Assembly (NCBI RefSeq): GCF_014695575.1
Contig: NZ_JACJOO010000071.1
Location: forward strand, 62,001-126,000
Direction of reading: 5' to 3'
DNA: 64,000 bases
Source: Leptolyngbya sp. FACHB-8
Lineage (GTDB): Bacteria > Cyanobacteriota > Cyanobacteriia > Elainellales > Elainellaceae
Part shown: positions 15,370-63,516 of the stretch, in pieces
How positions within the stretch are numbered: the stretch's first letter is position 1
How the letters are laid out: each line of letters starts with the position of its first letter
Made by a program: the position numbers and the translations under genes
The notes under the pieces: generated by a model
What the model was told of the DNA's origin: nothing
What the model saw: only the letters and a program-made list of their open reading frames with translations
Databases searched by the model: none

Positions 15370-15585
15370 ATATAAGGGCGTTGAGTAATGGGGCGATTGA
15401 AAAAGGGCTTGTAATGCAATCTACGGTAAATTCACACCGTTGGCTTGAACCCGCATAGGTAGAGGCTCAACCTGTGGACTATACCGGAAGATAAATCCCA
15501 GCTCTATTCTGCCATTTGAGCTTTATATCTTGCCAAAAGTCCCGTTTCTCTCTATTTTTCAATGAATTTCAGCAGGTCATTCAAC

Positions 15586-15692
15586 TTAGGAGGTTTCTGC
15601 ATAAGAATTTACCCAGAATGTTGGTGCTTTGCCCGCTTCGCGGGCAAAGCACCAACATTCTGGGGGTAATTTCATTACTGGAAATCTCCTTA
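15586..15692 (+). repeat. 107-bp hairpin element (GGAGATTTC ends), copy 1
   Basis: Ends TTAGGAGGTTTCTGCATAAG and GGAAATCTCCTTA; inner perfect stem-loop at 15612-15664 whose stem includes TTGGTGCTTTGCCCGC around loop TTC. The same layout and exact length recur at 30740-30846 and 49651-49757. Each copy is bordered by TTA on both sides. Confidence 0.88.
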
Positions 15693-22933: not shown

Positions 22934-23038
22934 TACAGCGCTTTGCGCTTGAATCAGCCACGGTTGTTTTTGTGGGAGCCGCGCTCCGCGTGGCTCCCAC
23001 AAAAACAACCGGATTTTAAGCGTTTGAAAAGCGCTGTA
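22934..23038 (-). repeat. 105-bp hairpin element (TACAGCGC ends), copy 1
   Basis: Termini TACAGCGCTTT and AAAGCGCTGTA; inner stem-loop 22961-23011 with GTGGGAGCC / GGCTCCCAC. It is in the opposite orientation to the copy at 54338-54442, which has exactly the same length, and to a partly degenerate copy ending at 46455. Confidence 0.9.
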
Positions 23039-30620: not shown

Positions 30621-30738
30621 CTGAGTTCGGGTTAAGGGCGTTTTCGAGTGCCGCGCGTTGCGCGGCACTCGAAAACGCTCATTTTGGCGTGCACTATGTG
30701 CACGCCAAAATGAGCACTTCAGCTTATCCCGAACTGAG
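30621..30738 (+). repeat. Two-hairpin element with GAGTTCGGGTTAAG ends
   Basis: Outer inverted repeat GAGTTCGGGTTAAG and CTTATCCCGAACTGAG encloses two back-to-back perfect hairpins, 30638-30678 (GCGTTTTCGAGTGCCGCGCG stem) and 30677-30715 (GCTCATTTTGGCGTGCAC stem). The two-armed layout matches that of the 132-bp element at 42675. A partial relative of the left end (TAAGGGCGTTTTTGAG) is at 38749-38764. Confidence 0.8.
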
Positions 30739-35859: not shown

Positions 35860-35907
35860 CAGCAATTCTCATTTTGAAATCAGGCCCGAGAACCGCGCGC
35901 CAAAGGC
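35860..35907 (-). repeat. 132-bp hairpin element, truncated copy 3
   Basis: CAGCAATTCTCATTTTGAAA then ATCAGGCCCGAGAACCGCGC and GCCAAAGGC match one end of the full elements at 42675 and 62128, then stop in mid-stem. The loop AAA is inverted relative to the flanking end when compared with the full copies (which read TTT in this orientation). Confidence 0.82.
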
Positions 35908-42665: not shown

Positions 42666-42815
42666 GCATCAAGCCAGCAATTCTCAGTATGGGCATCAAA
42701 GCCAAGAGTTCACGCCCTACGGGCGTGAACTCTTGGCTTTGATGCCCGAGAACCGCGCGCCAAAGGCGCGCGGTTCTCGGGCCTGATTTCAAAATGAGAA
42801 TTGCTGGCATCAAGC
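42666..42815 (-). mobile_element. 132-bp MITE-like element, copy 1, with 9-bp target duplication
   Basis: Element 42675-42806 has terminal inverted repeats CAGCAATTCTCA (right end read on minus) and GAGAATTGCTG, and is flanked on both sides by the direct repeat GCATCAAGC (42666-42674 and 42807-42815). Inside are two adjacent perfect hairpins: one with GGGCATCAAAGCCAAGAGTT and core CACGCCC-TAC-GGGCGTG, one with CCCGAGAACCGCGCGCC around AAA. The other full copy at 62128-62259 has the same 132-bp length, inverted orientation, and its own different 9-bp duplication. No coding capacity. Confidence 0.93.
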
Positions 42816-49644: not shown

Positions 49645-50187
49645 CCTGTCTTAGGGGATTTCCAGCAATAAAATTACCTCCGTGATATTGGTGCTTTGCC
49701 CGCGAAGCAGGCAAAGCACCAATATCACGGGTAAATTCTTATGCAGAAATCTCCTTAGATCCTGCACCAAATCCTGAAGCCCTATTTTTCCAATGTCCAT
49801 ATGAAGGGGTTGCTGGGTTAAGAACGGCTAACCCACACCCCCTAACCCCCTCTCCTGGGAGAGGGGGGATCGGAGAAAAACAGCTCAATGGTTGTTAAAA
49901 AGGTTTTCCGGCTTGATCTCCCCTCTTCTGGGAGAGGGACCGGGGGTATGGGCTCAGGGCGATCGCTTCAAACAAGCGCATAAACCTAATTTAAAACCCA
50001 CCGATGCGAAGCGCCACATTCACCTCCCACCAATAACTCCTTGTGCCAGGGGGTCTGGGGGACGGCACCCCGTCCTCCAGTCGGGGAGTTTGAGGGGCGA
50101 CGCGCCCTCAAGCAGGGTTTCCAACATGCAACCAAAACGTTATAAAGTTCTGAATGGGTTCGCCATTTAGAATTCTTTAATCTCCTT
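49645..50187. other. Spacer after ureB
   Basis: About 540 bases holding the 107-bp element (49651-49757), a C/G-rich pair of GGGAGAGGG hairpins (around 49845-49868 and 49919-49945) and a short GAGGGCGC hairpin (50090-50111). ureC is not present in any frame. Confidence 0.6.
49651..49757 (-). repeat. 107-bp hairpin element (GGAGATTTC ends), copy 3
   Basis: Inverted relative to copy 1. Stem with TTGGTGCTTTGCCCGC is shared with copy 1, but the outer stem part differs by matched changes on both arms (here GTGATATTGG / CCAATATCAC, there AGAATGTTGG / CCAACATTCT). Begins 7 bases after the ureB stop. Confidence 0.9.
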
Positions 50188-62064: not shown

Positions 62065-62120
62065 GACATGCCTAATGCTCTACGTTCTACTTAAGCAGAA
62101 CGTAGAGCATTAGACATGTC
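62065..62120. repeat. 56-bp hairpin
   Basis: Arms GACATGCCTAATGCTCTACG... and complement (one T/C difference), centre CTTAAG. Its last two bases are part of the 9-bp direct repeat of the next element. Confidence 0.86.
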
Positions 62121-62268
62121 TTCCATTCAGCAATTCTCATTTTGAAATCAGTCCCGAAAACCGCGCGCCTTTGGCGTGCGGTTTTCGGGCCTCAAAGCCA
62201 AGAGTTCACGCCCGTAGGGCGTGAACTCTTGGCTTTGAGGCCCATACTGAGAATTGCTGTCTTCCATT
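62119..62268 (+). mobile_element. 132-bp MITE-like element, copy 2, with 9-bp target duplication
   Basis: Element 62128-62259, same termini as copy 1 (CAGCAATTCTC / GAGAATTGCTG), opposite orientation, flanked by TCTTCCATT at 62119-62127 and 62260-62268. The two inner hairpins differ from copy 1 by matched pairs: CCCGAAAACC / GGTTTTCGGG against CCCGAGAACC / GGTTCTCGGG, and GGCCTCAAAGCC / GGCTTTGAGGCC against GGCATCAAAGCC / GGCTTTGATGCC. Confidence 0.93.
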
Positions 62269-63432: not shown

Positions 63433-63487
63433 TGCTTTAAAGGTTATTTTTCGTGGGCGAAGCCCACAAAAAATAACCTTTAAAGCA
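63433..63487. repeat. 55-bp hairpin, TTTTTCGTGGGC group
   Basis: Arms TGCTTTAAAGGTTATTTTTC... and complement, loop GAA between GTGGGC and GCCCAC, directly after the hydrolase stop codon. Confidence 0.88.
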
Positions 63488-63516
63488 CGCCCTCATATCT
63501 TTTCAACATGAAGATA

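Follow-up and report, generated by a model that had tools for sequence, protein, structure and literature searches.

In E. coli lacZ reporters, an imperfect hairpin is perfected when replication copies one of its arms from the other (PMC7202029), a process known as quasipalindrome correction, for which a 2003 paper is cited in PMC6649704. In yeast genes, the arms of inverted repeats are homogenized and the short spacers between them are inverted, repeatedly and in both directions, as with AA/TT and GAA/TTC (PMC8604942). Template switching also creates and maintains the hairpins of rRNA and microRNA, which accounts for compensatory changes of several bases with no need for two separate mutations (PMC8794818). 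In the rRNA study, a compensatory change accompanied by a loop inversion was regarded as the strongest support, yet such cases are very rare, with the loops being constrained (PMC8794818).

The element described here resembles all three systems. As in the E. coli quasipalindrome reporters, one arm appears to be copied from the other, but the reporters capture single engineered events, whereas the element offers natural multicopy hairpins with many events and loop inversion near saturation. It shares both outcomes with the yeast repeats, identical arms and inverted spacers; those lie in coding genes, ten of which show spacer inversion, whereas here the repeats belong to non-coding mobile elements of a bacterium, each family of which has dozens of copies. 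With rRNA it shares compensatory changes that probably arise through template switching, but loop inversions that are rare in rRNA occur in about half of the copies here, where the loops appear free to flip. Template switching is known from E. coli, yeast and rRNA; what is added here is a multicopy element of a bacterium in which it has come close to saturation.

Among mobile elements, the closest relatives are bacterial MITEs, including the cyanobacterial MITE Nezha (cited in PMC10969869), which are likewise short, lack a reading frame and have terminal inverted repeats, target duplications, stem-loops and a high copy number. The studied element differs from them in having two near-perfect internal hairpins, and from REP/REPIN sequences (20-40 bp palindromes with a RAYT gene) in its length and target duplications. 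We found no report of arm copying or loop inversion in bacterial MITEs in the open-access literature, most subscription papers lying outside the search.

Two genes flank the studied element on the + strand of the window, by which we mean the whole stretch of 64,000 nucleotides from Leptolyngbya sp. FACHB-8 that was analyzed. Positions 62119-62268 comprise one complete 132-bp mobile element (62128-62259) together with its flanking 9-bp target duplications. Its terminal inverted repeats are separated by 108 nt and enclose two hairpins, H1 and H2, each with a loop of 3 nt; the predicted fold is very stable (z -16). The window contains the following features:

62119-62127: left 9-bp target duplication TCTTCCATT, an exact repeat abutting the element
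62128-62139, + strand: left terminal inverted repeat CAGCAATTCTCA, 12 bp, found at 133 or more left ends across the genome and without paired changes
62156-62169, + strand: 5' arm of H1, 14 bp, from the fold and pair counts
62170-62172, + strand: H1 loop TTT (AAA, TTC or GAA in other copies)
62173-62186, + strand: 3' arm of H1, with a G·T mismatch at 62177
62187-62213, + strand: 5' arm of H2, 27 bp, from the fold and pair counts
62214-62216, + strand: H2 loop GTA (TAC in about equally many copies)
62217-62243, + strand: 3' arm of H2, 27 bp, from the fold and pair counts
62248-62259, + strand: right terminal inverted repeat TGAGAATTGCTG, 12 bp
62260-62268: right 9-bp target duplication TCTTCCATT
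42675-42806, - strand: second full copy, with its own target duplication GCATCAAGC at 42666-42674 and 42807-42815
35860-35907, + strand: truncated third copy (L048), broken within H1 and without a right end

Read in the orientation of the element, the second full copy has the loops TTT and GTA. Other near-perfect hairpins lie close to the studied element, at 62069-62116 and 63439-63488 of the window, and many more are scattered across it, for example at 22962, 43711, 54366 and 60927; the genome seems unusually rich in such structures.

The left 24 nt of the element, with up to three mismatches, occur at 133 places in the genome (6.93 Mb, 95 contigs), compared with none for a reversed control pattern. 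This one genome carries at least 133 copies, which were sampled through the listed hits and through left-end patterns. The loci fetched yielded 129 parsed elements, including a few from two related genomes, and 106 of the 129 are flanked by 9-bp target duplications that differ at one position at most. Given its length of 132 bp, its 12-bp terminal inverted repeats, its 9-bp target duplications and at least 133 left ends, the element is a MITE, a non-autonomous transposon. Where copies within the genome share flanking sequence, the matches are short and partial, and none revealed a duplicated insertion site. Several derivatives of 82-83 bp (L122, L125, L126, L127, L133, L140 and L144) have kept H1 and lost H2; they appear to be mobile, since target duplications of 8-9 bp are still present. 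Two genomes of another genus in the same family contain diverged relatives that keep these ends and the two-hairpin plan. No orthologous insertion was found: one other genome of the same genus, in which gene identity is only ~72%, lacks the element. Another repeat, at window 49997-50113, has more than 12 matches at 73-84% in that same-genus genome.

The search for an autonomous partner, which covered ISKra4-type transposases and the fetched loci, found none. ISKra4 had come into question because an Anaerolineae record (L091) has an ISKra4-type fragment beside a similar end, and it was rejected: the genome contains no ISKra4-type transposase. The ends of the studied element are absent from five plasmid loci carrying related transposases, none of the plasmid records examined is similar to the window element, and none of the fetched loci holds a full-length element with these ends. 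Exact matches to the left 22 nt occur in 10 records outside this genome, four of which are short elements with matching ends, from Competibacter, an Anaerolineae MAG and two Nostoc (L089, L091, L096 and L097). These have the same 17-nt ends and differ in their interiors, which suggests that a transposase family acting on such ends is widespread. The remaining records, without a matching second end, may be chance matches.

The original prediction, made from the window, was that the two 132-bp copies differ at stem positions facing each other, whereas random drift would give unpaired changes, and that either the folded RNA or DNA is under selection or one arm is repeatedly rewritten by copying from its partner. 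Both copies are real, each within its own 9-bp target duplication, and the two paired differences it quoted are present: columns 31/57 are A-T in one copy and G-C in the other, and columns 64/112 are C-G and A-T. Two further differences had been overlooked, an unpaired T versus G at 62152 and, in the H1 stem, a T at 62177 that gives G·T versus G·C. The two window copies alone therefore have two paired differences and one unpaired difference in the stems, and one outside them.

Once many copies are compared, the excess of paired changes lies far above chance. Within subfamily A (57 copies), both sides have changed in 18 pairs, compared with 3.7 +/- 1.4 in shuffles (0 of 500 reach 18) and with two to five when the partners are slid. 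All 18 sit in H1 or H2, and none in the terminal repeats. The changes were also placed on an 84-copy tree built without loops or 3' arms; like the other trees used here, it is a parsimony tree of short sequences with few informative columns, and the counts come from slightly different trees. On it, 37 double changes in the hairpins replace one Watson-Crick pair by another within a single branch, against ~6 expected from the number of changes; among other column pairs, co-changes fall short of expectation (340 versus 565). The terminal inverted repeats have 28 changes, none of them compensated, a comparison in which arm length varies along with spacing (12 bp, against 14 and 27 bp in the hairpins), so that the effect of spacing is not isolated. 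Paired changes private to one sampled copy number 17 in the hairpins and 0 in the terminal repeats.

Comparing the loops, a check proposed with the original prediction, proved decisive: reverse-complement loops are nearly equal in number in H1, in H2 and in two unrelated MITE families. Across 132 sequences, the H1 loop is TTT in 29, AAA in 27, TTC in 27 and GAA in 16, and the H2 loop is GTA in 40, TAC in 33, TTC in 12, GAA in 11, GTC in 5 and GAC in 3. The variants thus form reverse-complement pairs; to switch within a pair, two or three bases must change at once, and few intermediates are seen. Selection on RNA does not predict such near equality, but copying with a strand switch does, and copying is therefore supported.

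The orientation of one loop is independent of that of the other (Fisher p 0.80 and 1.0). On a tree built without loops, orientation has changed at least 21 (H1) and at least 23 (H2) times, compared with 25.3 and 26.1 for shuffled labels (p 0.06 and 0.12). Copies with identical non-loop sequence carry up to four loop combinations. The orientation of mismatches in the three pairs nearest the loop follows that of the loop (p 0.007, or 0.014 over the first eight pairs), with no signal beyond the first eight pairs, where only five cells are testable. In the studied copy at 62128-62259, the H1 core CCGCGCGCC TTT GGCGTGCGG, together with its mismatch, exactly matches the reverse complement of the L037 and L081 core (CCGCACGCC AAA GGCGCGCGG). 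Loop inversions and paired changes do not fall on the same branches above chance, so a joint event is not demonstrated, and the copying mechanism favored below does not explain this absence of coupling.

Two other MITE families in the genome carry such hairpins. One, with two internal hairpins, is nested in a copy of the studied element (L083, 200-460) and is also present at window 30675-30724; it has 374 first-look candidates in the genome and 54 exact pattern matches. A search with free loops and fixed arms gave AAA in 36 and TTT in 18, with no other loop. The other family, with different ends and apparently flanked by TA, lies at window 15585-15690 and 49653-49758 (- strand). Here the free-loop search gave TTC in 26 and GAA in 25, with three others, among 54 hits that include four loci read on both strands. 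L216-L218 (GAA) and L189-L194 (TTC) agree at all bases outside the loop. As both loop orientations are found in unrelated families with different ends, loop inversion follows the hairpin and not one particular element.

RNA pairing is expected to favor G·U. In the stems, A·C mismatches are as frequent as G·T (44 versus 43; 38 versus 30 on the tree), so wobble pairing is not favored, and the excess of G·U over A·C expected for a selected structured RNA is not seen. Mismatches also depend on position. In mid-stem, double changes outnumber mismatches by 25 to 9, whereas in the inner 7 bp beside the loops the counts are 11 and 57 (p 2e-8), and in the outer 5 bp of H2 they are 4 and 14. The original prediction was to fall if stem changes proved mostly unpaired. 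That condition has to be qualified: over whole stems, unpaired changes do exceed paired ones, but they lie beside the loop or in the basal part of the H2 stem, and in mid-stem paired changes dominate.

The rates can be compared with a simple copying model. Unpaired columns and terminal repeats give a neutral input of 2.45 changes per pair of columns, and mid-stem mismatches persist at 0.41 per pair. If correction restored the old pair or completed the new one with equal frequency (50:50), 1.02 visible double changes would be predicted per mid-stem pair, and 1.14 are observed. The inner 7 bp have more changes than the neutral columns, which this model does not account for. The position gradient is consistent with a switch for which priming near the apex takes several paired bases and return requires some homology ahead of the base, although fraying of helix ends under selection could also be its source.

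We consider it likely that the paired changes in the stems come mainly from DNA copying, that is, from template switching during replication with quasipalindrome correction and spacer inversion, and not from selection on RNA. Of the two sources originally put forward, the rewriting of one arm across the hairpin is thus supported and selection on the folded molecule disfavored. A replication fork would meet the hairpin, and the growing strand would sometimes switch template within it. By folding back, or by returning off-center after a jump between strands, it would rewrite one arm to complement its partner. A point mutation on one side would then be either erased or copied across, the latter outcome resembling a compensatory change. 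A symmetric return after a jump to the sister strand would instead invert the loop and adjacent pairs. The hairpins show the marks of a template-switch hotspot: joint arm changes that restore pairing, spacer inversion between unchanged arms, and closely spaced arms, here 3 nt apart. Replication template switching as the enzymology, the strand involved and the timing of most events, in resident copies after insertion, are what we infer from these patterns.

The stems would also stay paired if purifying selection acted on the fold, of RNA or of single-stranded DNA, so that changes to one arm survived only when matched in the other. They are 98.4% paired over 54 distinct copies, with covariation above all shuffles, and the stable fold noted above agrees with it, as does the concentration of tolerated mismatches near the loop and the stem base, which is compatible with helix stability. 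We nevertheless find selection quite improbable, because it leaves the ~50:50 loops and the equal frequency of A·C and G·T unexplained, because substitution input to the stems is not below that of unpaired columns, and because the copies sit at unrelated insertion sites. Rfam gives no RNA family for the element either; in the window, only a tRNA reaches the gathering score.

The changes might instead arise not in resident copies but in transposition, for example when an excised or single-stranded intermediate has its hairpin ends processed. The elements are mobile, as their 9-bp target duplications attest, and otherwise identical copies at different sites differ in their loops. Yet the same loop inversion is seen in three MITE families with different ends, one of them TA-flanked, and private paired changes are found in diverged, older copies, which makes this origin very doubtful. 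Slightly more doubtful still is ectopic gene conversion, in which palindromic hairpins align between copies in either orientation, spreading paired variants and flipping loops. There are more than 130 similar copies; paired states such as those at columns 64/112 recur in many copies, and 50:50 loops would result by construction. Against this, no donor is seen for the 17 paired changes private to single sampled copies, and the H1 palindrome is only 31 bp. Moreover, double changes per terminal branch rise, if weakly, with unpaired and terminal-repeat changes (rho 0.26, p 0.016), as events in place would. Template switching in resident copies remains the reading that we prefer.

Covariation is usually read as proof of a selected RNA structure. 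In these non-coding mobile copies, strong covariation is explained by mutation alone, with loop inversion as an internal tell-tale. The copies thus form a natural data set with many replicates on the origin of compensatory changes, an open question, and they call for caution in covariation-based RNA discovery where genomes are repeat-rich. It is conceivable, though unlikely, that an unusually active, perhaps dedicated, hairpin-processing or strand-switching activity in this cyanobacterium maintains the hairpins of many MITE families as perfect ones and inverts their loops at a rate far above that of point mutation; if so, hairpin MITEs would be natural counters of template switching.
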